Shown: in pieces, positions 6,700 to 52,194 of the stretch
Position numbering within the stretch: position 1 is the first letter of the stretch
Layout of the letters: every line of letters starts with the position of its first letter
Source: Gordonia effusa NBRC 100432
GTDB taxonomy: Bacteria > Actinomycetota > Actinomycetes > Mycobacteriales > Mycobacteriaceae
DNA length: 64,000 nt
Assembly: GCF_000241305.1 (NCBI RefSeq)
Contig: NZ_BAEH01000075.1
Coordinates: 1-64,000 of the forward strand
Reading direction: 5' to 3'
Program-made: the position numbers and the translations under genes
The notes under the pieces: model-generated
What the model was told of the DNA's origin: nothing
Database searches by the model: none
The model's input: only the letters and a program-made list of their open reading frames with translations

Positions 6700-6770
6700 C
6701 GAAAATCGTCCGATAATCTGCCAACCTGGGGCAATATGCCCTTCGCACCGTGATATTCGGACGATTTTCG
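6700..6770. repeat. Palindromic intergenic repeat, family 1, copy A
   Basis: A perfect 14-bp outer inverted repeat (6700-6713 and 6757-6770, arm CGAAAATCGTCCGA) encloses 43 bases with an inner hairpin GGGCAATATGCCC (6729-6741). It lies 6 bases after the pgsA stop. The same design (GTCC outer stem, ATAT-centred inner stem, about 43 bases between) recurs at four other sites in this window. Confidence 0.85.
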
Positions 6771-6776
6771 CGGGAG

Positions 6777-7409
6777 TCAGTTCGTCGAGTTTCGGCGTAG
6801 CGCCACCGCTTGCCAGACGTATTCGACGCCGGTGATCACGGTCGCCGCGACTGCCGCCACCATGAAACCCCACGCCACCCATTCCCACGGCTGCGGCAGC
6901 GGTAGGAGGAACAGACCGATCGCGAGCACTTGCAGCAAAGTCTTGAGCTTGCCACCACGGCTTGCCGGGATCACGCCGTGCCGCAGGACCCAGAACCGCA
7001 GCGCGGTCACCCCAAGCTCGCGACCAAGGATCACCACGGTGACCCACCAGGGCAAATCATCAAGGATGGACAGGCCGATCAACGCCGCGCCGATCAACGC
7101 CTTGTCAGCGATCGGGTCTGCGAGCTTCCCGAAATCGGTGACCAGCCCCCGCTCGCGTGCGAGGCGACCGTCATAGCGGTCGGTCAGTGCCGCAAGCGCG
7201 AAAATCCCCGTGGTGATCAACCGCCACGCGGTGTCGTGTCCACCGTCGAGGAACAGGGTGACAACGAAAACCGGCACGAGCACGATCCGGAATACGGTCA
7301 GCGCGTTGGCGATGTTGACCACCGGCACCACGTCCACCGGATCCGCGATGTGATCGGGTTTAGCCTCCGGTACCGGTAACCGCTCGCTGACGCGCTTGTG
7401 CTCGGTCAT
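6777..7409 (-). CDS. pgsA: CDP-alcohol phosphatidyltransferase (PgsA type)
   Basis: Membrane enzyme that moves a phosphatidyl group from CDP-diacylglycerol to an alcohol, most likely glycerol 3-phosphate (phosphatidylglycerophosphate synthesis, first step to PG and cardiolipin). The catalytic CDP-OH-P motif is complete: D80 G81 A84 R85 G94 D98 D102, numbered from the ATG at 7409. Four to five membrane segments follow. The frame could start upstream at 7463, but the ATG at 7409 gives a length (210 residues) closer to the family; neither has a strong ribosome-binding site. It corresponds to Rv2746c and precedes clgR. Confidence 0.88.
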   Translation of the reverse strand: MTEHKRVSERLPVPEAKPDHIADPVDVVPVVNIANALTVFRIVLVPVFVVTLFLDGGHDTAWRLITTGIFALAALTDRYDGRLARERGLVTDFGKLADPIADKALIGAALIGLSILDDLPWWVTVVILGRELGVTALRFWVLRHGVIPASRGGKLKTLLQVLAIGLFLLPLPQPWEWVAWGFMVAAVAATVITGVEYVWQAVALRRNSTN

Positions 7410-7556
7410 CCGATTAGCCGACACGTCAATGACACCCTCGGGCCAACGTACACAGTCGTGCATCTCACGTGGATAGCGTAACTACTCGGCCGACACGGCA
7501 TCGCGGCGCGTGGGTTGCCGCGCTATCTATTCGACGAGAACATTAGGATTTCGGGC

Positions 7557-8108
7557 ATGAGTCCAGCAGATCTGCCACCGGAAAGTGCCGCTACGTCGAA
7601 CGATATCGTCGTTCGACGCGCGCGCACCTCTGATGTGCCGCGGATCAAGGCCCTCGTCGATCAATACGCCGGCCGCATTCTGCTGGAAAAGAACCTCGTG
7701 ACGCTATACGAAGCGGTACAGGAATTTTGGGTCGCCACCATCTCCAACGATGGAACCGAACAGGTCGTCGGCTGCGGCGCACTGCACGTACTGTGGGCCG
7801 ACCTCGGCGAGGTTCGTACCGTCGCGGTGGATGCTTCCCTCGGCCGGCGCGGCATCGGGCATCGGGTGGTCAGCCAATTACTCACGGTCGCAAGGGAATT
7901 GGAGTTGTCGCGGGTCTTCGTACTGACTTTCGAGACCGAGTTCTTCGGCCGGCACGGATTCGTCGAGATCGAAGGCACCCCGGTCACCCGCGAGGTGTAC
8001 GAAGAGATGTGCCGCTCCTACGACACCGGTGTCGCCGAGTTCCTGGATCTTTCCTACGTCAAACCCAACACCCTCGGAAACACCCGAATGTTGGTCGCAC
8101 TCAACTGA
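7557..8108 (+). CDS. argA: GNAT-family amino-acid N-acetyltransferase (ArgA, Rv2747-like)
   Basis: 183-residue GNAT acetyltransferase. The acetyl-CoA motif is V(R)TVAVDASLGRRGIGHRVV with the LTFETEFFGRHGF segment typical of short actinobacterial N-acetylglutamate synthases, which start arginine biosynthesis by acetylating glutamate (or glutamine in M. tuberculosis). The ATG at 7557 is preceded by AGGA at good spacing; the open frame upstream lacks homology. It sits between pgsA and ftsK as Rv2747 does. Divergent from pgsA; the YciI gene follows 24 bases later. Confidence 0.88.
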   Translation: MSPADLPPESAATSNDIVVRRARTSDVPRIKALVDQYAGRILLEKNLVTLYEAVQEFWVATISNDGTEQVVGCGALHVLWADLGEVRTVAVDASLGRRGIGHRVVSQLLTVARELELSRVFVLTFETEFFGRHGFVEIEGTPVTREVYEEMCRSYDTGVAEFLDLSYVKPNTLGNTRMLVALN

Positions 8109-8132
8109 TTTCATCAACCCTAGGAGACCATC

Positions 8133-8417
8133 GTGGCCGTCATCGCCGTCGAATACACCTATCTACCCGAGAAACTCGCCCTGCGCGATGAGCATCGTCC
8201 GGCCCACCGCGCATGGCTGAGCGAACAGCTGGAAGCCGGCGCGGTGATTCTCTCCGGGCCGTTCACCAACGGCTCGGGTGCCCTCTTCCTGGTCCGCGCC
8301 GACAGTGAAGACGCGGCGCGGACCTTGCTCGCGGACGATCCGTTCCAGAAGGTCGGCGGCGTGAGTGACGTTCGCGCAATCGAGTGGACGCCAGTCTTCG
8401 GGCCCGTGGAGCCCTAG
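8133..8417 (+). CDS. YciI family protein
   Basis: 94-residue ferredoxin-fold alpha/beta protein of the YciI/YCII family. The signature is visible: RPAHRAWLSEQLEAGAVILSGPF near residues 22-45 with the conserved His, and a DDPFQKVGGVSDVRAIEWTPV end. The GTG start has an AGGAG ribosome-binding site 8 bases upstream. Members act as small enzymes or accessory domains with a conserved His-Asp pair; no substrate can be stated. It is probably cotranscribed with argA. Confidence 0.85.
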   Translation: MAVIAVEYTYLPEKLALRDEHRPAHRAWLSEQLEAGAVILSGPFTNGSGALFLVRADSEDAARTLLADDPFQKVGGVSDVRAIEWTPVFGPVEP

Positions 8418-8434
8418 GCACCGGGCCCGTAGAA

Positions 8435-9427
8435 CTACTCGATCGGCGACGGCTCCGACTTCTTCCGGGATTTCAGGAGGCTCGCCACCGTGGTGATAAC
8501 CAATGTTCCGATGATCACACTCAGTGACAGCGGCGTCGAGATTTCCGGTACCGCCACATGCTCGCCGCCGTTGATGAAGCCCAACGTGTTCTCATGCAAG
8601 GCGTGCAGCACCAGTTTGACGCCGATGAAGCCGAGAATGAACGACAATCCATAGCTCAGGTACACCAGGCGATCGAGAAGACCACCGAGCAGGAAGAACA
8701 GTTGGCGCAGACCCATCAGCGCGAAGGCGTTAGCCGTGAAGACGATATACGGCTCAGCAGTCAGTCCATAGATCGCCGGGATTGAGTCCAGCGCGAACAG
8801 AACGTCGGTGAAAGCGATGACAATGAGCACCATCAGCATCGGCGTAGCCATTCGCTTGCCGTTGATACGGGTAAACAAGCGGTCGCGGTCGTAATTGTCG
8901 GAGGTGCGGAGGACTCGCTTCACGAACCGCTCCAGCCGACTTTCGCGCTCCTCTTCATGCTCGACCGGGTCGTCGGATTCGCGGATCAGTTTGATCGCGG
9001 TATAGAGCAGGAATCCGCCGAACAGGTAGAACACCCAGCTGTAGGTACTGATCGCCGCGGCTCCGACGGCGATGAACGCACCACGTAGCACCAGCGCCAT
9101 CACGATGCCCAGGAGCAGAATTTTCTGCTGATATTCCTTAGGTACCGCGAATTTCGCGAAGATGATGACGAATACGAAAAGGTTGTCGACCGATAGCGCC
9201 TTCTCGGTGACATAGCCGGCGAAATACTCGCCGCCGAATGTCCCACCCCATTTCCACCAGACGAATCCGCCGAATAGCACCGCGATGGCGATGTATACCG
9301 CCGACCAGGTACCCGATTCTTTCAGGGTCGGCGCGTGGGGAACGCGAACGTGGGCGAAGAAATCGAAAACGAATAGGCCGAGAATCACCGCAATGGTGAC
9401 AATCCAGACGATGGCTGATACTTCCAA
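8435..9427 (-). CDS. TerC/Alx family integral membrane protein, probable manganese exporter
   Basis: 330-residue membrane protein with about nine hydrophobic segments. Conserved acidic intramembrane motifs are KALSVDNLFVFVIIF (residues about 76-90) and AFTDVLFALDSIPAIYGL (about 206-223), which identify TerC/Alx proteins. Members export Mn2+ and, in some bacteria, supply Mn to secreted enzymes. A yybP-ykoY manganese riboswitch lies in the leader, strongly supporting an Mn role rather than tellurite resistance. It is monocistronic, convergent with the YciI gene. Confidence 0.92.
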   Translation of the reverse strand: MEVSAIVWIVTIAVILGLFVFDFFAHVRVPHAPTLKESGTWSAVYIAIAVLFGGFVWWKWGGTFGGEYFAGYVTEKALSVDNLFVFVIIFAKFAVPKEYQQKILLLGIVMALVLRGAFIAVGAAAISTYSWVFYLFGGFLLYTAIKLIRESDDPVEHEEERESRLERFVKRVLRTSDNYDRDRLFTRINGKRMATPMLMVLIVIAFTDVLFALDSIPAIYGLTAEPYIVFTANAFALMGLRQLFFLLGGLLDRLVYLSYGLSFILGFIGVKLVLHALHENTLGFINGGEHVAVPEISTPLSLSVIIGTLVITTVASLLKSRKKSEPSPIE

Positions 9428-9483
9428 GGCAAACCTCCAGCGCGCAGCACCGCCGCATAGACAGCGGTGGATCTCATGCGATG

Positions 9484-9607
9484 CCAGAGGTCTCTCCCAC
9501 CCGCTATGCGGGTCGACTTCCCGGGTCTTGAGCTCTCAGCAGCGTGATGGCACGTGCCCGGCCCGGCCGTATTGACGGGTTGCCGTTGGGGGATACTCCC
9601 CTCTCGG
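9484..9607 (-). ncRNA. yybP-ykoY manganese riboswitch
   Basis: In the leader of the TerC gene, the minus strand contains the hallmark GAGGGGAGTA at the 5' side and GGGAGAGACCTCTGG at the 3' side. The two ends pair (CCGAGAGG with CCTCTGG) to form P1, bringing the two conserved loops together as in the Mn2+-binding yybP-ykoY fold. The intervening about 95 bases hold GC-rich stems. The element ends about 57 bases before the TerC ATG, leaving room for translational or terminator control. The class is known to switch on Mn exporters at high Mn2+. Confidence 0.85.
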
Positions 9608-9657
9608 ATCGTCGACCAGCTTACCTGAGAATTCGGACATCCGCACAACGCGACTGC

Positions 9658-9681
9658 GCCGCAGACGAATTAGCCTGCGGC
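9658..9681 (-). terminator. Hairpin after ftsK
   Basis: GCCGCAG (9658-9664) pairs with CTGCGGC (9675-9681), 17 bases beyond the ftsK stop. There is no T-tract, so it is only a candidate terminator. Confidence 0.4.
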
Positions 9682-9698
9682 ACAGTATATTTCACGCA

Positions 9699-12600
9699 CT
9701 ATTCGGTCGAGTCATCCTCGGCACCGCCACCGGTGATCGACGTGATCACGCCGGCGAGATCCTCCGGTTTCACCAAGACCTCGCGGGCTTTGGAACCTTC
9801 ACTCGGCCCGACGACGCCACGAGTCTCCATGAGATCCATGAGGCGTCCGGCTTTGGCGAATCCGACGCGGAGTTTGCGCTGCAACATCGACGTCGACCCG
9901 AACTGCGACGAGACCACCAGTTCGATGGCTTGCAACAGGTCGTCGAGGTCGTTGCCGATGTCGGCGTCGATATCCTTCTTGTCGCTGGCCTTGGCCGCGG
10001 TAACCCCTTCGGTGTACTCGGGTTCGGCCTGTTCGCGGGTGTAGTCGACGACGGCGGAAATCTCTTCGTCCGTGATGAACGCGCCCTGCATACGAATCGG
10101 TTTGTTGGCACCCATCGGCAAGAACAGTCCGTCACCCATACCGATGAGTTTTTCCGCACCGGGCTGATCCAGGATGACGCGCGAGTCGGTCAGCGACGAT
10201 GTTGCGAACGCCAGACGCGAGGGCACGTTGGTCTTGATCAGGCCGGTAACTACGTCTACCGACGGTCGCTGGGTCGCCAGAACCAGGTGAATACCCGCCG
10301 CGCGAGCCTTCTGCGTGATGCGGACAATCGCATCTTCGACGTCGCGCGGTGCGGTCATCATCAGGTCGGCGAGCTCGTCGACGATGGCGAGGATATACGG
10401 ATAGGGCTTGTACACGCGCTCGGAGCCGAGCGGCGTGCTGATCTCACCCGAGGCAACCTTCGCGTTGAAGTCGTCGATATGACGCACCCGGGAGGACTTC
10501 ATGTCCTGGTACCGCTGCTCCATCTCTTCGACCAGCCACGCCAACGCGGCGGCGGCCTTCTTGGGTTGCGTAATAATCGGCGTGATCAGGTGCGGGATGC
10601 CCTCGTACGGCGTAAGTTCCACCATCTTGGGGTCGATGAGAATCATCCGGACTTCGTCGGGCGTCGCTCGCTGCAGCAACGACACCAGCATCGAGTTGAC
10701 GAAGCTCGACTTACCGGAACCAGTCGAACCCGCGACCAACAGGTGCGGCATCTTCGCGAGGTTGGCGGTCACGAAGTCGCCCTCGATATCCTTGCCGAGA
10801 CCGATTACCAGCGGATGCCGGTCCTTCCGATTCTTCGGCGACGCCAAGACGTCGGCCAGGCGAACCATCTCTCGGTCGGCGTTGGGCACCTCGATGCCGA
10901 CCGCCGACTTACCCGGGATCGGCGCGAGCAGCCGTACGTTATCGGTCGCCGCCGCGTAAGCGATATTGCGCTGGAGTGCGGTGATCTTCTCCACCTTCAC
11001 GCCCGGACCGAGTTCAACCTCGTATCGAGTGACGGTCGGCCCGCGGGTGTAGCCGGTAACCGCGGCATCGATCTTGAACTGCTCGAGTACGGTACCGATG
11101 CGCTCGATCATCTCGTCGTTGGCGCTGCTGCCGAGTTTGGGCGGGTCGCCATCGATCAGCAGTGACGGTGGAGGCAGACGGTAGGTTCCTTCCGAATCCG
11201 CCATTGGCCGGGCAAGCGGTTCGTTGTCCGCGTCGTCGTCGCGGTCCTCGATGACCGGTGCGACAACGGGTTTCGGCGCCGAACGAGCCGATTCCTGTGC
11301 GGCACGCTCACGCGCGGCTTCACCCGCGGTCTTACGCTTCGGAGTCGATCGTGAAGTGGGCGCAGGATCGGCGAAGAGGTCGTCGGTGTCATCGCTGATC
11401 GGCTCGGTCACCATATCCGGTGACACCGGAGTCCGCCGAATTCCGCCGATGGGTTCGGTGGTCAGATCCGCGAGAATGTCGGCCGCGCCTGCTGAGGTTG
11501 GAGCGGCCTTACGACTGCGCCGTCGGCGAGCCGGCTGCTCGTCGGGCGGATAGTTGTCATAGGGATCGGCCGAACGCTCGGCAGCGGGGGCCGCGCCGAA
11601 TTCGTGGTCATCCTCGGCTTCGTCGACGTCTGGCGCCTCATCGTCGTAGTCGTCGTATTCGCCGTCGTCGTAGTAATCGTCGTCGTAATACTGATCGTCG
11701 TGGCTGAGTCCGAGATAGCCGGCGATCGCATCGACAACTTCACGCACGGTCCGGCCAGAAAGCAAAAGGCCACCAAATGCCATGCACAGCAAGAAGATTG
11801 GCACCGAGATCCACTCGGTGACCGCATTGGTCAACGGCGTCCCGACTACGAAGCCGAGGTAGCCACCAGCGTCCGACCGAGCGTCGAGTCCGCGCGGCGA
11901 TCCGGCAATCAGGTGAATAAGGCCTAGCAATGGCAGCCCGATAAGCAAACCCGCGCCGATGTAGTGCGGGCGACGTCGCGGGTTCGGCGGCCGGCGCATC
12001 AACATGATTCCCAGAGCTACCAACGCGATCGGCACCACGACTGCCACGACCCCCACGATGGCGCGCACCAACGTGTCGATGAACGCACCTGCCGGGCCGG
12101 CAGCGGCAAACCACACCCCCGCTCCGATCACCGCCGCGACGACGATCAGCGCGAGACCCGCTCCATCGCGACGATGTGAGTGTCCATCGGCACCCGCTGG
12201 CACGCGACGCATGCCGGAGTGGGAATCGCGCGGCGCGGGTTGGTCGAGGAATTCGTTCTCGTCCTCGTCGAAGGGGATCTCGTCGTAGTCATAGCGGTCG
12301 TCGCCACCACGGGTCGAGCCCGCCCCCATGCGGGCGAGGCTGCCGACGCCTCGCGCGAGCAGCGTCCAACCCGCGCCAAGACCGCGCCCAGCCGACGCCG
12401 CGACCGAGGGGCGGCGGTGGTGAATGTCAGCCGACGCGGTGCTGACCCGACCGGCCGACGCCGACCGGGTGGCCGAACCGGAACGAGTCTTCGCAGCGGA
12501 CTTGCGGGGGGCAGTTTTTGTTGAGCTACCCTTCGACGTCGACTTGGCCGGCGCCTTTGATTTAGCAGCGTTCGTCGCGGTCGACTTACGTGCGCCACCG

Positions 12601-12710: not shown

Positions 12711-12890
12711 GCCGACAGACTAGTCTCTCAGGTTCACTTCAGTCACACCCGCAACACCGGCATCGGGTCGGCCGTGTCGCTTTCGTGACATCAAGGGCAT
12801 CGTTAGGCGCAAAGCTGCGACGTCAGCGTCGGCAAGGGAAATATCCCCTCGCAGGCATCGAGGCTGCAGGTTTCAGCTCGGGGCCGTGCG

Positions 12891-13523
12891 CTAAACCCCG
12901 CGAGGCGCGGCCGTCAACGCGGCAACCGCGGCGTCGTCGCCGTGCAGACTCACCTGCACCGGCTCCCGACCGAAGGTGAATAACAGCAGCTCACCGGCTG
13001 TGCCAGTGACAGTCACCTGCTCACCGGAGCCGACGCTGGCTACCGCTGCACCGTCGGGCGTACGCAGAATCACTCGTACCGGCGGCTTCGGCATGGCAAT
13101 CCGCACGGCATTGCGAACCGCGCCAACAAGCGCCTTCTGCAGGCCCGCATCGAGCACGCGTGGTGTCCAGTCCGACGTCGCGTCGACTCCGCCACGCAGC
13201 ACGTCTTCATGGTGGACGAACATCTCCGAGAGATTCAGCCAGCGGTCCAGCGGACGAAATGGTGAAAACCACGGCGGACCATCGGCCACTCGATCGATGA
13301 TCGACGTCCACTCCCCCGCCGCCACCTTCGACTGCACCTTTTCGGTATATCCGGCGAGTGCGGGGACCGCGATACCCGGCGCCGCGTCGAGACGTGACTC
13401 ACGCACGATGATGTGTGCTGCGAGGTCGCGGGCGGTCCAGCCATCGCACATAGTTGGCGCGTCGGGCCCGACGTCGCGCAACGTCGCGGCCAAGGCGCGA
13501 CGTTCGGAGCGAGCGTAAGTCAC
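12891..13523 (-). CDS. TIGR03085/DinB-like mycothiol-dependent maleylpyruvate isomerase-fold protein
   Basis: 210-residue protein of the DinB/MDMPI four-helix-bundle superfamily (TIGR03085 type). The N-terminal CDGWTARDLAAHIIVRES motif carries the metal-binding His, with a second His pair in EMFVHHEDVLRG. The GTG at 13523 is chosen because it follows an AAGGA ribosome-binding site; a longer frame runs back into RNase J coding sequence. It begins 11 bases after the rnj stop and so ends a dapA-rnj operon. Members are thought to be metal-dependent enzymes using mycothiol; the substrate is unknown. Confidence 0.82.
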   Translation of the reverse strand: MTYARSERRALAATLRDVGPDAPTMCDGWTARDLAAHIIVRESRLDAAPGIAVPALAGYTEKVQSKVAAGEWTSIIDRVADGPPWFSPFRPLDRWLNLSEMFVHHEDVLRGGVDATSDWTPRVLDAGLQKALVGAVRNAVRIAMPKPPVRVILRTPDGAAVASVGSGEQVTVTGTAGELLLFTFGREPVQVSLHGDDAAVAALTAAPRGV

Positions 13524-13534
13524 CGGGGCGGTCC

Positions 13535-18168: not shown

Positions 18169-18180
18169 AGTCAGTTGCCG

Positions 18181-18243
18181 AAATATGTCCCGAGGATGGC
18201 ACAAACGCCATATGGACGCCCGTCGCATCCTCGGGACATATTT
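18181..18243. repeat. Palindromic intergenic repeat, family 1, copy B
   Basis: A perfect 18-bp inverted repeat (18181-18198 and 18226-18243; arm AAATATGTCCCGAGGATG) encloses 27 bases containing ACGCCATATGGACGCC. It lies between the convergent phosphatase and HAD genes, 12 bases from each stop. It has the longest outer stem of the five copies and is well placed as a shared terminator. Confidence 0.85.
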
Positions 18244-18255
18244 GCGCGGATCTAG

Positions 18256-27351: not shown

Positions 27352-29412
27352 GTGACCGACGACCAGACTGGGTTCGACCGTCGTACCTTCTTGCGCACCG
27401 GCGCGACGATCGGTGCCGGCGCGGCAATCGCGTCGACGCTCACGACCGCGATCGGCGGACCGGCAACCGCCACACCGACGTCGGGTTATCTCGTCGGCGC
27501 GGGCAAGGGCGATATGACCGGCGCCATCGCCGGGCAAGGCATGATGGGCTACTCCGACATGGACCAGGTGGCCGACGGATTGCTGCAACGGACCTGGGCA
27601 CGCGCGTACATCATCGCCGATGCCGCGAGCGGTAAACGTGTTCTTTTCATCACCGCCGACATCGCGTGCGTCTTCACCTCGCACCACCAAACGTTGCTCG
27701 CCGAACTTGCCAAGCGCTATGGCAATACCTACAACGTGCACAACGTGAACGTCAACGCCACTCACAATCACAATTCGTGCGGTGGTACGTCGTGGGACTA
27801 CGCCTACGTCCTGGCCGCAAAAGGTCACCGGCATAACTCTTTCCGCGCCGAAGTAGACGGGCTCCTAGAAGCGGTCGACGCCGCGCACCGCAGCCTCGGG
27901 CCCGGCACCGTCGAACTCGGCCACACCGAACTGCACAACGCATCGGCGAACCGCTCGCTGACGGCGTTCACCCTCAACCCGGCCGACGAGCAGCGCCATT
28001 TCCCCAATCATATCGACCCGCAGGTCACCGCACTTCGACTGCGCCGCAACGGTTCCGCTATCGGCGAGATCACGTGGTTCGCCACCCACGGAACGTCGCT
28101 GACCGACGCCAACTTTCAGATCGCGCCCGACAACAAGGGATACGCCGCATATCTCGGTGAGCAGCGCGATCCGAATATCGTCAGCGCGCACGCACAAACC
28201 AATTCCGGCGACATGACGCCAAACATGTGGCTACGCAAGATGCATCCGGGCGGACCGACCGCCGACAATCGAACCAACCGGGTCATCATCGGCCAACGTC
28301 AAGACCGGGCCGGTCAGAATGCCTTGGCCGGCGCACGGCCTATGTCGAGGGCGGGCATCGATGCGACTACTCGCTACGTCGACATGGCGAATGTGTCGAT
28401 CAGCGGTCACTACACACCACACGGCAAGACGGCGCGCACGACGCCGGCAATGATGGGCGCGGCGGCGGCCGCCACCAGCCAGGAAGACAACACGCGCAGT
28501 CAGTTGTCGTTTCTTAACGAAGGTGTACGCAATGAACTCGCGATGGCGCTCGGCGCTGGCGCGAATCCGACTCCCCCACAATGGATCATCGACGCCCAGG
28601 CGCCCAAGGCGATTCTCTTTCCACTCGGGCTATTGCCACCTCGTCCTTGGATCGAGCAGACACTTCCGCTCCAATTGATCCGGATCGGCGATCTCGTCTT
28701 GGCTGCCATCCCGACCGAATCCACCATCGTCGCAGGACTGCGGATCAGACGTATTGTCGCCGACGCCCTAAAGGTGCCGCTGGAAAATGTTCTGCTACAA
28801 GGTTATTCGAACGGTTACAGCCAATACGTGACCACGCCCGAAGAGTACGTCGCACAGCAGTACGAGGGTGGCGAAACCCTATTCGGCCGCTGGACGCTAT
28901 GCGCGTATATGCAGGAGCTGGACAAGATGGCGAGAGCGATGGCACGCGGCGCGAAGCTCAGCACCGGTCCGCGACCGGCCAACCATGCTGGCCTCCAACC
29001 AGATCTGCTCGGATCGCAACCCGCCGATACTCCACATCCCGGATGTCGGTTCGGCGATGTCGTGAAATCGGCGCCGTCGTCGGCACGCGCGGGCCAGACG
29101 GTGCGCGTCGGATTTTGTGGTGCCTTCCCCAGCAATAGGATTCACCGGGGCGCCAACACCCGCGGTTACTTCGCCATCGAGCGTTTCACCGGTAGCGGCT
29201 GGGAAACCGCCTTCGACGATGACCACGCCTCCACCGAATTGACGTGGTCTCGTCCGGCCGGCAGCGTCTCGGCATCGACGATAACGATCACTTGGCGCAT
29301 TCCGCGCGGAACGTCGGGACGTTATCGCGTGCGGTATTTCGGCGACGCGAAGGCGGCGTCGGGAAAGATTACGAGTTTCACGGGGACCAGCGGCCGGATC
29401 GAGGTCCGATAA
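27352..29412 (+). CDS. Secreted neutral ceramidase
   Basis: 686-residue neutral/alkaline ceramidase, which cleaves ceramide to sphingosine and fatty acid outside the cell. The N-terminus carries a twin-arginine-type signal (DRRTFLRTG then a hydrophobic, Ala-rich stretch to about residue 42). The zinc/active-site region is recognisable: GQGMMGYSDMDQ, NATHNHNSCGG, HIDPQVTAL and WFATHGTSL; the catalytic serine lies in TNSGDMTPNM. The Ig-like C-terminal domain is present. M. tuberculosis Rv0669c is a homologue. Monocistronic, GTG start with GGAAAG upstream. Confidence 0.93.
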   Translation: MTDDQTGFDRRTFLRTGATIGAGAAIASTLTTAIGGPATATPTSGYLVGAGKGDMTGAIAGQGMMGYSDMDQVADGLLQRTWARAYIIADAASGKRVLFITADIACVFTSHHQTLLAELAKRYGNTYNVHNVNVNATHNHNSCGGTSWDYAYVLAAKGHRHNSFRAEVDGLLEAVDAAHRSLGPGTVELGHTELHNASANRSLTAFTLNPADEQRHFPNHIDPQVTALRLRRNGSAIGEITWFATHGTSLTDANFQIAPDNKGYAAYLGEQRDPNIVSAHAQTNSGDMTPNMWLRKMHPGGPTADNRTNRVIIGQRQDRAGQNALAGARPMSRAGIDATTRYVDMANVSISGHYTPHGKTARTTPAMMGAAAAATSQEDNTRSQLSFLNEGVRNELAMALGAGANPTPPQWIIDAQAPKAILFPLGLLPPRPWIEQTLPLQLIRIGDLVLAAIPTESTIVAGLRIRRIVADALKVPLENVLLQGYSNGYSQYVTTPEEYVAQQYEGGETLFGRWTLCAYMQELDKMARAMARGAKLSTGPRPANHAGLQPDLLGSQPADTPHPGCRFGDVVKSAPSSARAGQTVRVGFCGAFPSNRIHRGANTRGYFAIERFTGSGWETAFDDDHASTELTWSRPAGSVSASTITITWRIPRGTSGRYRVRYFGDAKAASGKITSFTGTSGRIEVR

Positions 29413-29447: not shown

Positions 29448-29484
29448 CGGGCGTGCGACAACTCGATTTTACCGTGCACGCCCG
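29448..29484 (+). terminator. Hairpin after the ceramidase gene
   Basis: CGGGCGTGC (29448-29456) pairs with GCACGCCCG (29476-29484), 36 bases after the ceramidase stop and directly against repeat copy C. It is followed by CAAAATC rather than a T-tract, so terminator function is only likely. Confidence 0.5.
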
Positions 29485-29485
29485 C

Positions 29486-29552
29486 AAAATCGTCCCCGTG
29501 GGTTGGCTGGAAGGGCAATATGCCCTCCGATGGCGCTCAGGGGGACGAAAAA
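29486..29552. repeat. Palindromic intergenic repeat, family 1, copy C
   Basis: An 8-bp outer stem TCGTCCCC (29490-29497) / GGGGACGA (29541-29548) encloses 43 bases with an inner hairpin GGGCAATATGCCC. Its inner core is identical to copy A. It lies between convergent ceramidase and pnp genes. The outer stem is the shortest of the five copies. Confidence 0.75.
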
Positions 29553-29662
29553 GTCAGCGAGGCCGATAGTGGCCTACCACCAAACCAAGGTCAGGGTCTA
29601 GCTCGATATGAACGAAAAGCGGCCCGCGACAACATGTGTCGCGGACCGCTCAACGAAACAGA

Positions 29663-31939
29663 TCAGGCGTCGGCGTTGGTCTCGGCCGCTTCCGCGACGG
29701 TCTCGGCCGGCGCGGCCTTGGCCTCGTCGTCGACCAGGATCAGGCTGATCTTGCCGCGCTCATCGATGTCGGCGATCTCCACCTGCAACTTGGATCCGAC
29801 GCTCACGACGTCTTCTACCTTGTTGATCCGCTTGCCACGGCCCAGCTTGGAGATGTGGACCAGTCCGTCGCGGCCCGGCAGCAGCGAAACGAACGCACCG
29901 AAGGCGGTGGTCTTGACGACCGTGCCCAAGAACCGCTCGCCGACCTTGGGCAGCTGCGGGTTGGCGATGGCGTTGACCTTGTCGATCGCGGCCTGAGCCG
30001 ACGGGCCGTCAGCCGCGCCGACGAACACGGTGCCGTCATCTTCGATGGAGATGTTGGCGCCGGTTTCCTCGGTGATGCCGTTGATCGTCTTGCCCTTGGG
30101 GCCGATCAGCTCACCGATCTTGTCCATCGGAATCTTGATGGTGGTGATCCGCGGCGCGAACGGGCTCATCTCGTCGGGCTCGTCGATGGCCTCGGCCATG
30201 ACGTCGAGGATGGTCAGGCGCGCATCGCGAGCCTGGCTCAACGCACCCGCAAGCACCTTCGACGGGATGCCGTCGAGCTTGGTATCGAGCTGCAGCGCGG
30301 TGACGAAGTCCTTTGTACCGGCGACCTTGAAGTCCATGTCGCCGAAGGCGTCTTCGGCACCGAGGATGTCGGTCAACGCCACGTAGCGGGTTTCGCCGTC
30401 GACCTGGTCGGAGACCAGACCCATCGCGATACCGGCGACCGGAGCCTTAAGCGGCACACCGGCGTTGAGCATCGAGATGGTCGACGCGCAGACCGAACCC
30501 ATCGACGTCGAACCGTTGGATCCGAGAGCTTCGGACACCTGGCGAATCGCGTACGGGAACTCTTCGACACTCGGCAGCACCGGCACCAGCGCACGCTCGG
30601 CGAGTGCACCGTGGCCGATCTCGCGACGCTTGGGCGAACCGACGCGGCCGGTTTCACCGGTCGAGTACGGCGGGAAGTTGTAGTGATGCATGTAGCGCTT
30701 GGACGTCTCCGGTCCGAGCGAGTCGATCTGCTGAGCCATCTTGACCATGTCCAGCGTGGTGACACCCATGATTTGGGTTTCGCCGCGCTCGAACAGAGCG
30801 CTGCCGTGTGCGCGCGGGATCACGGCGACCTCGGCCGACAGCGACCGGATGTCGGTGATACCGCGACCGTCGATGCGGAAGTGGTCGGTCAGGATGCGCT
30901 GACGGACGAGCTTCTTGGTCAGCGAGCGGTAGGCCGCACCAATTTCCTTCTCGCGACCCTCGAACTGGCCGGCGAGCTGATCGAGCAGTTCGCCCTTGAG
31001 GTTGTCGGTGGCAGCGTCGCGCTCTTGTTTGGTGGCGATGGTGAGTGCCTGCGCCAGCTTCTCCGATGCGGCGGCTTCGACTGCGGCGTAAGCATCGTCG
31101 GCATACGGCGGGAACAGCGGGAACTCGCCGGTCTCTTTGGCAGCCTGCTCAGCCAGACTCTTCTGCGCCTCACACAGTGTGGCGATGAACGGCTTGGCGG
31201 CCTCGAGTCCCTCGGCCACGATGGCCTCGGTCGGTGCCTGTGCACCTTCGGCGATGCGCGCCAACACGTTCTCGGTGGCCTCGGCTTCGACCATCATGAT
31301 AGCGACGTCGCCGCTGTCGACGATGCGGCCAGCGACCACCATGTCGAAGACGGCGCCCTCGAGCTGCTCGACGGTCGGGAACGCGACCCACTGTCCGGCC
31401 TTGTTCTCCTCGGTCGGGATCAGCGCGACACGCACACCGCCCACTGGGCCGGAGAACGGGAGGCCAGCGATCTGAGTTGACGCCGATGCGGCGTTAATCG
31501 CCACGACGTCGTACAGGTCGTTGGGGTTGAGCGACAGAATCGTCTCGACGACCTGGATCTCGTTACGCAGACCGTCGACGAAGGACGGACGCAGCGGCCG
31601 GTCGATCAGACGGCAGGTCAAGATCGCATCGGTCGACGGGCGGCCTTCACGGCGGAAGAACGAGCCGGGGATGCGGCCCGCGGCGTACATACGCTCTTCG
31701 ACGTCGACGGTCAGCGGGAAGAAGTCGAAGTGATCCTTCGGCGCCTTCGACGCGGTGGTGGTCGACAGGATCATGGTCTCTTCGTCGAGGTAGGCCACGA
31801 CGGAGCCGGCGGCCTGCAAAGCAAGGCGACCGGTTTCGAAACGGATAGTACGGGTGCCGAAGCTGCCATTGTCGATAACGGCGGTGGCTTCGGTGACGTC
31901 GTCGTCGTATTCGACGTCGGTGTTGACTTCAGTAGTCAT
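29663..31939 (-). CDS. pnp: Polyribonucleotide nucleotidyltransferase (PNPase)
   Basis: 758-residue phosphorolytic 3'-5' exoribonuclease of mRNA decay. Two RNase PH domains, then KH ([24 protein letters not shown]) and S1 ([33 protein letters not shown]) RNA-binding domains are visible. The ATG at 31939 gives the family N-terminus and has AAAGGG upstream; the upstream frame (R-rich) is not conserved. M. tuberculosis GPSI has 752 residues. rpsO, usually nearby upstream, is separated here by a 3-kb accessory block. Confidence 0.97.
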
Positions 31940-32308
31940 ATGTTCGGGGTTATCCCTTTCACTGCGGCGGGCCGCTCGTCGGCGCCGCCGGATGTTTACA
32001 CGTTTACGACCCCTGAGCACCAGCATTGCGGGTACGACAAGGTGTCGCGAGACATAGCGAGAATGCGAGAGGTCGCACAGAGAGTCGGCGTTGCACAGGC
32101 CCTTCCAACAGGGCGCTGTGATTGCAGACGGCCTTCGATCGAAGCTGTCGGAACCCTTAGGCTCCGGCAGCCACTACCGAGGACCGTTCTGACTCGAACC
32201 CACCAAACTTCATCTGTTGACATCTGCAACTGGCGATGTTCCGTGCTGAGTTTATCACTTGACAAGCTGGCGCCTGCCATTCCACGGGATGGCCGGCCGC
32301 AATTGTTC
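31940..32308 (-). other. pnp leader/promoter region, no gene seen
   Basis: This 369-base stretch precedes pnp. It contains a small hairpin (GCCCTGTTGGAAGGGC, around 32101-32116) but no convincing ORF: the longest frames have no ribosome-binding site and no recognisable protein. It probably holds the pnp promoter and a long leader, which for PNPase genes is often a site of autoregulatory processing (inference). Confidence 0.4.
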
Positions 32309-32377
32309 CTGGAACTGTCCCCCTGAGCCGAGCAGACGCTATATCGCGGTCCTTGCCCGCCACGGGGACAGTTCCAG
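32309..32377. repeat. Palindromic intergenic repeat, family 1, copy D
   Basis: A perfect 14-bp outer stem CTGGAACTGTCCCC (32309-32322) / 32364-32377 encloses 41 bases centred on GACGCTATATCGCGGTC. It ends 5 bases from the stop of the GlxA-type regulator, so it lies at that gene's 3' end. Here the arm has GAAC in place of AAAT, with complementary changes on the other arm. Confidence 0.82.
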
Positions 32378-32382
32378 CGCTG

Positions 32383-33348
32383 CTACCCCGCTTCCGCGTC
32401 CCCGGACACTCCGAAACGGGCGCGGTATGCCGACGGCGTGGTGGTATAGCGACGAACGAAATTCTGCCGAAACGTCACCGCGCTGCCGAATCCGCACGCA
32501 TGCGCTATCCGGTCCATCCCCCACCGGGTGTTCTCCAGAAGGACGCGCGATTCGTCGAGGCGCTGGTCGGTAACCCATTGAGCAGGTGGCGTTCCGGTCG
32601 CCGCACGGAAGTTCCGTACGAAACTCCGTCGGCTCATATTCGCCTGCGCCGCAAGGACATCGACCGACAGGTCGCCGTCGAGATTGGCCAACGCCCATTC
32701 GCAGACCTCTCCTATCGGATCACCGTCCGGCTGCGGAGCCACGGGGCGCTCGATGTACTGAGCCTGACCGCCGTCGCGATGTGGAGCGACGACGAGATAC
32801 CTAGCGACCTGATTAGCCGCCGACGCGCCGAGATAGCGGCGCACAATATGCAGACACGCGTCGATCGACGCAGCCGTGCCGGCCGACGTTATGACGTCGC
32901 CGTGGTCGATATACAGCACGGAAGTATCGAGCACGACATTCGGATTTCGTTGTGTCAGTTGAGGTATCCAACCCCAATGCGTCACGGCCGCACGACCGTC
33001 GAGCAGGCCGGCGTCGATTATGGCAGTCGCACCCAAACACAGCCCGACGATTACCGCACCTCGCTCATGGGCCGCGCGAAGAGCCGCGCACAGGCCAGCG
33101 TCGGCGGCGGGCAGATCCATTGGCCAGGTAGGGATTACGAAGATATCCGCGTCATCGATGACTTCCGGGCCCGCTACGCCGGACAGTGTGTTGCCCTCGG
33201 CGGTGCGGACCGCTTGGCCGCCGAATGACCACAGCACGGTCGACCATTCGATGTCGCGCACCACTCGACCGACTTCCCCGAATACGGCCAGCGGTGCCGC
33301 GATATGGAACAACGACGCGCCCTCGAAGACATAGATCGCGATTCTCAT
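32383..33348 (-). CDS. GlxA-type regulator: DJ-1/PfpI domain plus AraC helix-turn-helix
   Basis: 321 residues. The N-terminal DJ-1/PfpI-like amidotransferase domain (residues 1-190) has a cysteine elbow VGLCLGATAI; the C-terminal AraC domain has two helix-turn-helix motifs (DVLAAQANMSRRSFVRNFRAATG and RIAHACGFGSAVTFRQNF). It is divergent from the cysteine hydrolase gene and probably regulates it. Ligand unknown. Monocistronic, with repeat copy D at the 3' end. Confidence 0.9.
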   Translation of the reverse strand: MRIAIYVFEGASLFHIAAPLAVFGEVGRVVRDIEWSTVLWSFGGQAVRTAEGNTLSGVAGPEVIDDADIFVIPTWPMDLPAADAGLCAALRAAHERGAVIVGLCLGATAIIDAGLLDGRAAVTHWGWIPQLTQRNPNVVLDTSVLYIDHGDVITSAGTAASIDACLHIVRRYLGASAANQVARYLVVAPHRDGGQAQYIERPVAPQPDGDPIGEVCEWALANLDGDLSVDVLAAQANMSRRSFVRNFRAATGTPPAQWVTDQRLDESRVLLENTRWGMDRIAHACGFGSAVTFRQNFVRRYTTTPSAYRARFGVSGDAEAG

Positions 33349-33469
33349 GACAACCTTTTCGCTGATGGCCTAATTCCATCGATAGTGTGCATAACGGCCA
33401 CTCCCATTGCAAGCACGCACCGCGCAGACTCATCGATGTACACAGCACACCTCCCGATTGGAGACCCGA

Positions 33470-34102
33470 ATGACCGCACCACGCAGAGCACTCATCGTCG
33501 TCGACGTCCAGCAGGAATACGAGAACGGCCCGCTGCAGATCCAGTACCCGCCACGCGAAGAATCCGTGGCCAACACAATTGCCGCGATCAATGCTGCACA
33601 GGCAGCCGGAATGCCGATTGTCATTGTGTCGCATACCTTTCCGGAGCAAGCGCCGGTTTTCGCCGCCGGCTCGGAAGGCTGGCAACTACAGCCCGCTATC
33701 GCCGCGGCCGCTCCCGACGACGCCAAGTACGTCGAGAAGAACTTTGCGTCGACATTCGCCGGCACCGACGTCGCTCAGTGGCTTGCGGAGCGGAATGTCG
33801 ACACCATCACGATCGTCGGTTTCATGACCAACAACTGCGATCTGGCGACCGCGATCGAAGCCGAAGGTCTGGGCTTGCAGGCAGAAATTCTCTCCGACGC
33901 CTCTGGCGCGATACATCTCGCGAATGAAGCAGGCTCGGTTACCGCCGAACAGTTGCATACAACGCTGATGGTGATGTTGCAGTCGAATTTCGCGGCTGTC
34001 GCGACGACCGCCGATTGGCTCGTCGCGCTTAAAGACGGAACTCCCCTGGTGAAGAACAACCTGGTTACCTCCGCATTGGCGGGTCGCGGCGCGGCGGTAT
34101 AG
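33470..34102 (+). CDS. Isochorismatase-family cysteine hydrolase
   Basis: 210-residue hydrolase of the isochorismatase/nicotinamidase fold. The catalytic triad is readable: Asp12 in LIVVDVQQ, Lys90 in KYVEKNFAS, and Cys123 in GFMTNNCDLAT. The ATG at 33470 has GGAG 8 bases upstream; 21 in-frame upstream codons have no homology. Members hydrolyse amides such as nicotinamide, biuret or N-carbamoyl compounds. The divergent GlxA-type regulator suggests inducible catabolism of a small nitrogen compound (inference). Confidence 0.87.
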   Translation: MTAPRRALIVVDVQQEYENGPLQIQYPPREESVANTIAAINAAQAAGMPIVIVSHTFPEQAPVFAAGSEGWQLQPAIAAAAPDDAKYVEKNFASTFAGTDVAQWLAERNVDTITIVGFMTNNCDLATAIEAEGLGLQAEILSDASGAIHLANEAGSVTAEQLHTTLMVMLQSNFAAVATTADWLVALKDGTPLVKNNLVTSALAGRGAAV

Positions 34103-34582
34103 CTACACCACATTTCCAAATTCGGCCAACTGCCGTTTCCACCACTGCGCGAACCGCAGCGAGAATACGTCGAGCGGAAAGCTATGCCGCACAGCGTTTT
34201 CCGGTGGAATTCGATCCCAGCCGTAATGTTCGACGGTTACCCGGGTTTGGACCGGGTTACCGTCGATCTGATCGAACCGGACATGTAGCTCGGTATCGGC
34301 ATCGGGCGGAAAGCCTTCCTGACGCCATCCGACCACTAACCGCGACGGCGGCTCCCACACCCTGACGTCGCCGATCTGGAAAACCGTGCCATCGTCGTAG
34401 CGTTCGATCAGGCAACCCCGCGGCCCCGGCCAAAATTCCAGTGTGCCAACCGAATTCGGCACAAACTGAAAGAGCGGATTGGGTCGCCACCAGCGGCCGA
34501 TTTGTTCGGTGAAGGTCGTGAACGCTCGCTCGGCCGTCACATTGACCCGCAGTGCGACTAGCACTCGCGATCCGTCAGGCAT
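34103..34582 (-). CDS. SRPBCC/AHSA1 family protein
   Basis: 159-residue START-like protein of the AHSA1/YndB-type SRPBCC superfamily (segments RAFTTFTEQIGRWWRPNPLF, GRVWEP-like DVRVWEPPSRLVVGWRQEG, TRVTVEHYGW). The ATG at 34582 lies inside the last codons of the ArsR gene with a GGAGGGTG ribosome-binding site. Third gene of the VOC-ArsR-SRPBCC operon; ArsR and AHSA1-like genes are a frequent pair in actinobacteria. Ligand unknown. Confidence 0.85.
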   Translation of the reverse strand: MPDGSRVLVALRVNVTAERAFTTFTEQIGRWWRPNPLFQFVPNSVGTLEFWPGPRGCLIERYDDGTVFQIGDVRVWEPPSRLVVGWRQEGFPPDADTELHVRFDQIDGNPVQTRVTVEHYGWDRIPPENAVRHSFPLDVFSLRFAQWWKRQLAEFGNVV

Positions 34583-41246: not shown

Positions 41247-41540
41247 TTTAGGCGGTCGAGTGCGCGGCGGGTCCCGATGGTCTAGTGCGCTCGGCGAGCG
41301 CCAGCGAGACGCGCGCGTATCGAGACCGAGTGATATCTATCTCGGAATCGATTGCGCCGCAGCGAGTTTGGCGGTCACCTCACCGGGTCTCGATACACCT
41401 CGTCGCTAGCGCTCCTCGGAACTCGACCATCTGGGGTGGAACTCGACCATCGAGAGGTTGGGTTTAACTCTCTCCTCGGAACTCGACCATCGGGGGGAGA
41501 GAACTGGCTCCCCTCGGCGCTCGACCATCCCGGGGGCCAA
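41247..41540. repeat. Repeat cluster, family 2 (GTCTCGATACACC / CTCGACCATC), copy 1
   Basis: A non-coding block between the lipase and a frameshifted membrane gene. GTATCGAGACCG (41317-41328) is inverted relative to CGGGTCTCGATACAC (41384-41398). The decamer ACTCGACCAT occurs at 41421, 41441 and 41481, plus TCGACCATC at 41521; the 20-mer CTCCTCGGAACTCGACCATC occurs twice (41412 and 41472). The same GTCTCGATACACC and CTCGACCA words recur at 61022-61132. I see no gene in 41168-41599. Confidence 0.8.
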
Positions 41541-46088: not shown

Positions 46089-46102
46089 CTAGGACTCAGG
46101 AG

Positions 46103-48946: not shown

Positions 48947-49023
48947 TGCTCTCCTCACTTGGAGGTCGAGCGGGACCCGCTGCGACCTCGGTTTACGTTA
49001 GAAACGTGCTCATCGTGGGAACT

Positions 49024-49377: not shown

Positions 49378-49422
49378 TGAACAGTCTACCGTCGTAGGCA
49401 AATCGGAATCGAGCCGGCCGCG

Positions 49423-50448
49423 TCAGGCGGGCGCGCCGGTCTCGTCCGACGCTGTCGGCTCCGGGTCGGCATCGGATCGGATGTCGATTCGCCAACCGGT
49501 TAGCCGGGCCGCCAATCGGGCGTTTTGCCCCTCTTTGCCGATTGCCAGCGAGAGCTGATAGTCGGGCACCACAACTCGAGCGGCCTTGCTCTCCTCATCG
49601 ATTACCGTCACCGACAGCACCTTCGCCGGCGACAACGCGTTGGCGACGAAGACCGCGGGGTCGGCGTCGAAGTCGATGATGTCGATCTTTTCGCCCGCCA
49701 GTTCGCTCATCACGTTGCGCACGCGCTGGCCCATCGGTCCGATGCACGCGCCTTTCGCGTTGAGCCCGGGCACGGCGGTATGCACGGCGATCTTCGAGCG
49801 GTGGCCCGCCTCGCGCGCAACGGCGACGATCTCGACCTGACCGTTCTCGATTTCTGGGACTTCAAGCGAAAACAACTTGCGCACGAGATTCGGGTGGGTG
49901 CGCGACAGGGTGATCTGCGGTCCGCGTTGGCCGCGAGTCACGCCGACGACGTAGCACTTCAGCCGATCGCCATGCTCGTACTTCTCTCCCGGCACCTGCT
50001 CGGCCTGCGGAATCACACCTTCGGTTCCGTGCGCGTCGCTGCCGATCTGCACAATGATCATGTTGCGGGCGTTCGCCCGTACATCGCGCTGCACGACGCC
50101 GCCGACGATCTCGCCCTCGTGGGTCGCGAAATCGCCGAAATTCTTTTCGTTCTCGGCATCTTGAATACGCTGCAGGATCACCTGGCGGGCCGTCGTCGCC
50201 GCGATTCGACCGAAGTCTGCCGGGGTGTCATCCCATTCGTGGACGATCTCGCCGGTTTCGTCGACCTCTTGCGCCATCACACGCACCACGCCAGACTTCC
50301 GGTCGACATCGACCCGCGCGTGCTGCGCGTATCCGTCGGTATGTCGGTAGGCGGTCAGCAGCGCCGATTCGATCGCGGTGATGACCGTGTCGATCGAGAC
50401 ACCCTTCTCGACCTCGATCATCCGCAGTGCATTGATGTCGATATTCAT
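49423..50448 (-). CDS. nusA: Transcription termination/antitermination factor NusA
   Basis: 341 residues: N-terminal RNA polymerase-binding domain ([35 protein letters not shown]), S1 domain, and two KH domains ([40 protein letters not shown]). There is no C-terminal acidic repeat, as in other actinobacteria. Within rimP-nusA-ylxR-infB. Confidence 0.97.
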
Positions 50449-50517
50449 GTTGGCCTGTGCTCCTATTTACTTGTGGGTCGCTAGTCGATGCTGTGGTCAA
50501 AAGTTGGTGCGGATATG

Positions 50518-51066
50518 TCAGTTCTTGCGCGTCAGGCGTGCGATTGCCGCGTCGTCCAGGCCACACAATTCCAGTTCGGTGGCGTTCGGGGCACTGAAAT
50601 CGACCTGTACGACCGCCTTGGTTACCGACTTGAGATCAATCGTCGTCGTGGTGAACCGCCCGCGCTCGTTGCGGATCAAATCAACAACGCCATCGGCTGA
50701 CCTGCCGATACGGCCCGAGATGCGCTCGGTTTTACCGCCCTCGGACACATCCACGTCGACCTTTCGTCCCTGCGCTCGTCGCCAATGTCGCGGTTCGGTC
50801 AGAGGTCGGTTGATGCCGGGGGTCGTGAGTTCCAGGGTGTAATCGGCGTCGGGTACCGCTGAATCGATCATTTCGACGAGGTCGCGCGTCAGTTTTGCCA
50901 GCGCGTCGAGTTCGGCTCCGCCGTCCCGGTCGACGACGATGGTTATGGCGATGCCACCGTCGGGTGACGGCTTCGTAGCGAGGTCTTCGACGTCATATCC
51001 GTCGGCAGCGATCCGCGGGGCGACGAGTTCGTGTATCTGCTGCGGCGGCATCGGTGCTGTGCTCAC
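50518..51066 (-). CDS. rimP: Ribosome maturation factor RimP
   Basis: 182 residues with the YhbC/RimP layout: VVDRDGGAELDALAKLTRDLVEMID, YTLELTTPGINRPLTEPRHWRRAQGRKV, and a C-terminal SH3-like domain. It assists 30S assembly. GTG start with GAGGAG upstream. It heads the rimP-nusA-ylxR-infB operon and is divergent from the DUF4439 pair. Confidence 0.95.
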   Translation of the reverse strand: MSTAPMPPQQIHELVAPRIAADGYDVEDLATKPSPDGGIAITIVVDRDGGAELDALAKLTRDLVEMIDSAVPDADYTLELTTPGINRPLTEPRHWRRAQGRKVDVDVSEGGKTERISGRIGRSADGVVDLIRNERGRFTTTTIDLKSVTKAVVQVDFSAPNATELELCGLDDAAIARLTRKN

Positions 51067-51204
51067 GCCGGGGGCTCCTCGTCTTCAGTTGTGCGGTGCG
51101 TCGGCGATCTAGTCTAGTCCACTTCGGCCCGTCCGCTTACTTAGGCTCGCTCGTTGCCCGACGGTCCGGCAATCATCGGCGCGCCAATGGCATCATGGTC
51201 GATT

Positions 51205-51696
51205 GTGACCCGCGAGCTGAACCGACGAACCGTCCTGGCCGGTAGCCTACTGGGCCTTAGCGGGCTCGCCGTGGCACCCGCGTTGAGCGCATGTGATCGC
51301 GGCCCAACCGCCGATCAACTGTTGGCACAACAGTTGACGCCGGTGGCGACCGCCGCCACGGCCGATGCCGACGCGGCACGCACATTGGTGGCGACCAACC
51401 CGAATTATGCTGCGGCACTTGGTGTCGTGCGTGCCGAGCGGGAAGCTCACGCCACGGCACTGCGCGAAGAACTCACTCGACTGGATCCCGAAGCGGCGCA
51501 ATCACTTCCGGCTACCCCGCCGACGTCGGGCACGCCGTCGACGTCGGCGATCACCCTGGACTCCTTTCGTACCCAGTTGGATCGCTCCGCGCGTCAGGCC
51601 GCCGACGTCGGGGTATCGATGGACGGCTACCGCGCCGGACTGCTCGCGTCGGTGAGCGCGTCGACGACAACTCTGCGAAAGGTTCAATTGGCATGA
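51205..51696 (+). CDS. Lipoprotein upstream of DUF4439 (Rv2843-position gene)
   Basis: 163 residues from the GTG at 51205. The N-terminus combines a twin-arginine-like NRRTVLAG with a hydrophobic stretch and a lipobox LSAC, so it is an exported lipoprotein. The mature part is helical and Ala-rich. Earlier starts (ATG 51187 or 51154) are possible; none has a ribosome-binding site. It overlaps the ferritin-like gene (ATGA), and the pair occupies the Rv2843-Rv2844 position. Function unknown. Confidence 0.72.
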   Translation: MTRELNRRTVLAGSLLGLSGLAVAPALSACDRGPTADQLLAQQLTPVATAATADADAARTLVATNPNYAAALGVVRAEREAHATALREELTRLDPEAAQSLPATPPTSGTPSTSAITLDSFRTQLDRSARQAADVGVSMDGYRAGLLASVSASTTTLRKVQLA

Positions 51697-52124
51697 GCGA
51701 CACCACAGATGCGCTCGGCGCTGCCGTCGATGCGGAACACGCGGCCGTATACACCTACGGAGTGCTGACCGCGTTCACGACGGGTGAGCGTCGGGCGGCG
51801 GTTGCCACCTATATCGCCGAACACCGCGCTCGGCGCGATGAACTCAACGATGCCCTTGTGTCGGCCGGTGGACAGGCCCGCGCGACAGCACCCGGATATG
51901 TTCTGTCCGTTGAAGTAACGAATTCCGCGACCGCGGCGAAGGCCGCCCTCGCATCGGAAGATGACGCGGCACAGGCATATCGGTCACTCGCCGAGCGCGC
52001 CGATACTCAGCCGATCCGGCGGTTGGCCGTGAGCGGGCTAACCGATTGCGCACTGCGTGCCGCGTACTGGCGCGCGGCGTCGGGGATTAAGCCCGCGACG
52101 GTCGCATTGCCCGGAGCGAAGTAA
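51693..52124 (+). CDS. DUF4439 ferritin-like domain protein
   Basis: 143 residues. A ferritin-like four-helix bundle: AVDAEHAAVYTYGVLTAFTTGERRAAVATYIAEHRARRDEL carries the E-x2-H-type positions; DDAAQAYRSLAERAD continues the bundle. Homologous to Rv2844. Metal binding is possible but unproven. Cotranscribed with the lipoprotein and followed by repeat copy E. Confidence 0.85.
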   Translation: MSDTTDALGAAVDAEHAAVYTYGVLTAFTTGERRAAVATYIAEHRARRDELNDALVSAGGQARATAPGYVLSVEVTNSATAAKAALASEDDAAQAYRSLAERADTQPIRRLAVSGLTDCALRAAYWRAASGIKPATVALPGAK

Positions 52125-52128
52125 CTCT

Positions 52129-52194
52129 GAAAATGTCCCCCGTCACGAGAGCAAGCGGCGATATAGCGCCCGCACCCGTCACGGGGACATTTCC
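52129..52194. repeat. Palindromic intergenic repeat, family 1, copy E
   Basis: AAAATGTCCCC (52130-52140) pairs with GGGGACATTT (52183-52192); the 42 bases between are centred on GGCGATATAGCGCC (52157-52170). It lies between the convergent DUF4439 and proS genes, 4 bases past the former's stop and 11 bases from the latter's. Confidence 0.82.

Follow-up and report, generated by a model that had tools for sequence, protein, structure and literature searches.

REP-like dispersed palindromes at gene ends in Gordonia effusa, and their probable partnership with a family of AbiEi-Vsr nucleases in a two-part selfish system

The closest described systems to the one reported here are the REPtrons, in which a gene is bordered by repetitive extragenic palindromes (REPs), many solo copies of the cognate palindrome lie elsewhere, and several classes occur per genome (PMC3733652, PMC8266576). 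REP copies occupy mostly gaps between convergent or co-directional genes, many of them less than 20 bp from both stop codons, and their ends sometimes supply the stop codon (PMC3733652, PMC8266576). For one large group of REPs the origin on offer is a HUH-type REP-associated tyrosine transposase (RAYT), and for another it is no dedicated enzyme; the CGTC-tagged REPs, palindromes found at gene ends, apparently do without a dedicated transposase (PMC3733652). Here we describe palindromes at gene ends in Gordonia effusa NBRC 100432, first noted in a stretch of 64,000 nucleotides (contig NZ_BAEH01000075.1, positions 1 to 64,000; C59 in our numbering; hereafter the window), together with a family of nuclease genes that such palindromes border. 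These are, in our judgement, probably REP-like dispersed palindromes of a two-part selfish system, in which the autonomous unit would be a nuclease gene between two palindromes and the solo palindromes its dispersed derivatives.

The elements are about 65-75 bp long and share one build, with an A/T-rich tip, a GC-rich inverted end, a variable middle and a conserved centre. Across the 4.70-Mb draft genome the pattern GTCCCCN{30,50}GGGGAC occurs 60 times against once for the reversed pattern, and the 15-base core RGGGCANNNTGCCCY occurs 105 times against once for its reversed control. By their ends the palindromes sort into eight classes. Class I has the ends GAAAATCGTCCGAATA and the centre GGGCANNNTGCCC, class II has GAAATTTCGTCCCC-like ends and the centre of class I, class III has the ends CTGGAAATGTCCCC and the centre GGCGATATAGCGCC, and class IV has the ends AAATATGTCCCGAGG. 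Strict two-ended copies in the 0.8 Mb examined closely (80 stretches, picked around copies of classes I-IV, plus the window) number 32, 32, 38, 5, 7, 6, 2 and 2 for classes I to VIII, and their total of 124 is a lower bound for the genome. The two search words for class VII include letters of the window copy at 12809-12876 itself, and copy L072, which has class III ends and is counted as such among the 124, was grouped with class IV in the conservation and position counts on account of its 51-bp length. Among the 50 of the 105 core sites that were listed, 17 further ones belong to elements whose ends are those of class I, II, V or VI; one, L443, is of uncertain class.

An earlier note on the window had taken five palindromes to be one family whose variable arms stay paired through compensatory change. 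Sorting the copies into classes rules out this single family, since the five belong to class I (6701), class IV (18180), class II (29484) and class III (32309 and 52127), each with its own conserved ends. Within classes I-III (25, 20 and 33 rows) the ends and the centre are at or near 2 bits per base, with roughly ten variable bases flanking the centre to either side. Left and right variants assort nearly independently and mismatches are retained: class II positions 6 and 8 are paired in 40% and 35% of copies against 36% and 45% expected. Pairing within classes is thus near independence, and the complementary "changes" are therefore mainly differences between classes; what stands of the claim is a modest pairing excess at a few positions of class I (up to 0.76 against 0.60 expected) and class III (0.73 against 0.51 and 0.70 against 0.49). 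Conservation is of sequence in the two half-sites and not of pairing alone. The variable arms of the five copies had also suggested that elements insert into terminator stems already in place, which the conservation of the outer arms within each class rules out.

The nuclease, of about 290 amino acids, was recognised through flank comparisons and translations of neighbour genes; clustering of the genes that neighbour the elements gave no enriched family. Its N-terminal half is AbiEi-like and presumably DNA-binding, and its C-terminal half is a Vsr/EDxHD-type nuclease, with a Vsr-like predicted fold and conserved acidic residues. The family has seven paralogous loci in this genome (eight matches, one locus being in two broken pieces), with a different palindrome class at each, on both sides at six of them and on one side at the seventh. 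Class II stands on both sides of the nuclease at C24:49239, class III on both sides of that at C94:12541 and class IV on both sides of that at C74:43873. The C38 nuclease has two class V elements on one side and one on the other, and the C84 nuclease, with a broken reading frame, has class VI on both sides. At C86:3357 a class VII element lies to the left and two poorly palindromic relatives lie to the right, and the C102 nuclease has class VIII on one side. The genes with the class III pair (L110) and a class II pair (L061) are related, at 49% identity. No nuclease for class I was found in this assembly; in the relative G007, a nuclease (G007:C58:86679) near a contig end is adjoined by a class I copy. 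Palindromes that survive beside a broken nuclease (C84) or without one (class I) agree with a two-part system. The C24 nuclease (L061:6647-8106) has the same neighbour gene in G005 and G014 (L241, L243), where the cassette has the opposite orientation relative to that neighbour, as if it had been flipped between its palindromes.

The association of nuclease and paired repeat extends well beyond this genome. With an alignment of the six own proteins the family was found in 57/59 genomes of the genus (E<=1e-10) and in 19/397 genomes sampled in the order (7/85 genera); with a 65-row alignment it was found in 10/396 genomes in the phylum (5/236 genera), the last two samples including genomes of the own genus. 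We compared the 350 bp at the left end of each locus with the 350 bp at the right end, scoring a shared ungapped repeat at 14 or more. The 109 loci comprise 76 from the genus (from more than 150 matches listed, with L335 and L338 dropped as duplicates), 14 from the order (leaving out L421-L423, which are ended by contig ends, and L433, the second piece of the gene of L420) and 19 from beyond the order, these being the matches with retrieved flanks. A matching repeat is present on both sides of 57 of the 109 loci, compared with one of 109 for DNA 375-725 bp further out (p 2e-20). When partners were swapped, 6/76 genus, 0/14 order and 0/19 more distant loci passed, and of 150 other genes of this genome two passed, one of which is the C24 nuclease and the other borderline. 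Counting palindromes is a weaker approach because ordinary hairpins also count, and it gave at least one side for 56/76 genus loci against 56/187 control genes, and both sides for 11/76 against 2/187. End sequences are alike solely for closely related nucleases (Mantel r 0.39, 0/2000 permutations, 56 loci with a palindrome).

Tsukamurella tyrosinosolvens carries the gene on three plasmids, in one of which the annotation shows no more than a short fragment of it; in two of the three, palindromes flank it left and right. NCBI names two of these three homologues "type IV toxin-antitoxin system AbiEi family antitoxin domain-containing protein", and among the annotated neighbours of the three plasmid loci the AbiEii nucleotidyltransferase partner is absent. 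The N-terminal half resembles the AbiEi of AbiE type IV toxin-antitoxin systems, and unlike there it is fused to a nuclease. Two Amycolatopsis species hold related but different copies of a long near-perfect palindrome with GTCC..GGAC words (L208:4823-4870 and L209:4728-4775), each arm of which can form a small hairpin.

Independent gene calls place 44 of 86 copies between convergent genes, 34 in tandem gaps, 4 in divergent gaps, one inside a call and three at an edge, whereas gaps of 90-1200 bp in the same DNA, copy-bearing ones included, divide into 51 convergent, 162 tandem and 88 divergent. In class III, 32 of 35 copies overlap the relevant called stop or lie at most 23 bp from it (35 rather than 33, as two odd-length copies were added by hand), and both convergent stops are often within 10 bp. 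Together with the pattern counts this bears out the earlier note's expectation of a structured set across the genome with a strong 3'-end bias. The covariance-model search it proposed, with the five copies as the model, gave 147 matches on both strands at about 100 places when 150 of 833 candidates were scored.

This placement is what one would look for in bidirectional intrinsic terminators or 3'-end stabilisers with an RNA structure under selection, for which the link to the nuclease would be incidental. The elements are strong hairpins that mostly follow stop codons and lie between convergent genes, and the asymmetric centres of tandem copies, where readable, point 12 times in the same and 14 times in the opposite direction, an absence of strand bias that rules out an oriented RNA element and is expected of a two-way terminator. 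Moreover, another hairpin takes the place of the element in G007 at two orthologous junctions, found by the scan at L097 and by eye at L084. However, termination does not call for dozens of unlinked copies that are nearly identical over 16-20 bp, covariation inside classes is little and mismatches are retained, a separate ordinary hairpin already stands 3' of pnp beside the class II copy of the window, and the matching pairs around one gene family are left unexplained. We therefore regard a purely terminator role as unlikely.

The second alternative makes the palindromes immobile operators or other regulatory sites for the AbiEi-like half, through which the gene would regulate itself and a wider regulon. 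It appeals to the finding that antitoxins of the AbiEi type bind inverted repeats and control their own expression (PMC7319586), and the protein does have an AbiEi-like half. Against it, solo copies lie at 3' ends and seldom in the promoter-bearing divergent gaps (4/86), paired copies lie downstream of the nuclease gene as well as upstream, and presence at the same junction differs between species. Nine element-bearing junctions were called syntenic in the 1.19-Mb tile of G007; one has an element there and eight intervals have no element core. The lone one, L070, carries a class II element whose outer arms are different yet again paired. Among the element-free intervals, that of L097 has another palindrome and two others have only weak ones, and the junction at L090 is unclean. 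At L110, G007 lacks a gene that here stands between two class III copies. The operator reading consequently seems to us very improbable.

Miniature inverted-repeat transposable elements (MITEs) are short, non-autonomous elements with inverted-repeat ends and many copies, and in these respects the palindromes resemble them. They could accordingly descend, in the manner of MITEs, from an unrelated transposon, with the nuclease as a passenger between two elements or as a homing endonuclease sitting at them. High copy number and an expansion specific to this species (105 core sites, against no more than 28 in any of the other 58 genomes of the genus) are in keeping with this, as is the resemblance of the catalytic half to a homing endonuclease. 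Unlike MITEs, these elements have no clear target-site duplication and their ends go with nuclease paralogs. Direct repeats of 2-5 bp show no clear excess in the 78 copies of classes I-III, with isolated small excesses such as two class I 4-mers observed against 0.5 expected, and a MITE with target-site duplication is ruled out. Besides the nuclease, the 150 other genes gave a single borderline case with paired flanks. Many different paired repeats surround the same nuclease family in many genera, and the nuclease is therefore not the passenger of one transposon; we give the MITE-like alternative very little credence. EDxHD/Vsr-like homing endonucleases such as I-Bth0305I differ from the present family in further ways: at the loci seen, the nuclease genes lie neither in an intron nor within another gene, they have an AbiEi-like half, and the adjoining palindromes also exist in many solo copies. 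Carriage by phages was dismissed, with one weak record among 50,697. The exact class III pattern has no match in other named genomes, which is a weak test as the ends differ between species.

RAYT-driven REPs are ruled out, since a search for the Y1 HUH transposase (PF01797) found nothing in this genome at E<=0.001; as a control, it was positive in 5/14 known genomes. By analogy with REP/RAYT systems, a palindrome-bordered gene here too has dispersed solo copies, although the gene is not a RAYT, and the preference for gene 3' ends, convergent gaps and closeness to stops is the same. The enzyme differs, being an AbiEi-Vsr nuclease and non-HUH, and so does the repeat: REPs measure 20-40 bp and carry an unpaired tag, GTAG or CGTC, at one end, while the elements here, of about 65-75 bp, have two paired conserved inverted ends and a conserved centre. 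The CGTC-tagged REPs likewise lie at gene ends; compared by description, they are predominantly alpha-proteobacterial and their tag is unpaired at one end. The main text of PMC3733652 contains none of the words Actinobacteria, Gordonia, Mycobacteri and Streptomyces. Our literature search, mostly of open-access papers and with subscription papers and bioRxiv largely outside its scope, showed no earlier description linking a Vsr/DUF559/AbiEi nuclease to dispersed palindromes. Neither the enzyme nor the tag that define REP/RAYT is found here, and we know of no named mobile element with an AbiEi-Vsr enzyme. The palindromes and their nucleases appear to be a kind of self-spreading actinobacterial repeat that has not been described before, although its arrangement has a known analogue in REP/RAYT.

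For the two-part selfish system that we favour, we infer that the nuclease moves the palindromes. Its N-terminal half would bind the cognate inverted ends, as suggested by the binding of inverted repeats by AbiEi-type antitoxins (PMC7319586), and the C-terminal half might nick or cut at these ends, either as duplex or as extruded hairpin. Repair or strand transfer could then copy the palindrome, or the whole palindrome-gene-palindrome unit, to new sites. Solo copies at gene 3' ends would do little harm and be tolerated, or may be useful as bidirectional terminators. The earlier note had listed non-autonomous mobile elements and protein-binding sites among its options, and both remain part of this picture; the nuclease link and the several families go beyond it. 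More generally, we lean, by a little, towards a class of bacterial mobile element, found across several families of Actinomycetes, whose mobilising enzyme is a nuclease of Vsr/EDxHD fold with an AbiEi-like DNA-binding half. It would recognise paired palindromic ends, move itself as a palindrome-nuclease-palindrome unit and spread solo palindromes that become host gene-end hairpins, with recognition switching fast so that each lineage has its own ends. If true, this would be a second, independent origin of REP-like repeats, it would give a function to actinobacterial genes so far named antitoxin-domain or hypothetical proteins, and it would provide a testable model for how such repeats spread and settle at gene 3' ends. 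The nuclease, though unrelated to the RAYT, has the REPtron-like organisation, and it comes in dozens of natural enzyme/palindrome pairs of differing sequence.

The window itself holds six palindromes, none assigned to a strand. The class I palindrome at 6701-6770 (ends GAAAATCGTCCGA.., centre GGGGCAATATGCCC) lies 6 bp from the stop of the minus-strand gene 6777-7463. The class IV palindrome at 18180-18245 (AAATATGTCCCGAGG..) lies between convergent genes with both stops 10 bp away, and its end words resemble both copies around the C74:43873 nuclease. The class II palindrome at 29484-29555 (..CGTCCCC.., centre GGGCAATATGCCC), of the class shared with the pair around C24:49239, lies between the gene 27352-29412 (plus strand) and pnp (29663-32026, minus strand). 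Of the two class III palindromes, the class shared with the pair around C94:12541, the one at 32309-32378 (CTGGAACTGTCCCC.., centre GACGCTATATCGC) is 5 bp 3' of the stop of the minus-strand gene 32383-33348 and upstream of the Actino-pnp leader, and the one at 52127-52197 (..AAATGTCCCC.., centre GGCGATATAGCGCC) has convergent stops at 2 and 9 bp. These five were all present where the earlier note had placed them. Independent gene calls again put three of them between convergent genes and all five 2-71 bp from a called stop, in agreement with its figure of about 75 bases, although the distance between the GTCC and GGAC words, which it gave as 41-43 bases, measures 43-47 (from GTCC to GGAC inclusive, 55, 51, 55, 53 and 54 bp in window order). 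Against dinucleotide shuffles the five score z -4.1 to -7.1, and for each of them none of 200 shuffles was as good. The sixth, a class VII element at 12809-12876 (GCAAAGCTGCGACGTC.., centre AAGGGAAATATCCCCTC) lying between two minus-strand genes, 9699-12329 and 12891-13523, has a weak fold (z -1.55) and has the word CTGCGACGTC in common with the copy beside the C86:3357 nuclease. T runs at the window elements are short and inside the stem, and the plus-strand end of the 29484-29555 element is A, not T.

Other features of the window were noted alongside the elements. An ordinary strong hairpin at 29616-29658, just 3' of the pnp stop, is distinct from the class II element, which lies about 60 bp off. 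Within 32263-34136 the pnp leader is parted from the next gene in synteny by two genes, 32383-33348 and 33470-34102, which have the class III element at their edge and are absent from the corresponding place in G007. The closest named relatives of the PNPase are from Gordonia, with Prescottella and Williamsia. A perfect hairpin at 1862-1902 with 17-bp arms (AAAGCGATATGGCGCCG..CGGCGCCATATCGCTTT), closely following the stop of 958-1848, is probably a plain terminator. In the window, Actino-pnp and ASdes are the sole Rfam 15 matches at the gathering score, neither of them at an element; the ASdes-like RNA (RF01781, 50.8 bits), of a family best known from mycobacteria, lies at 63358-63425. Finally, another dispersed repeat, with words like GGTCTCGATACACC and ACACCGAAGCTCG, forms inverted pairs between genes at 41317-41396 of the window, at L330:729-862 and in several intergenic stretches of G007.

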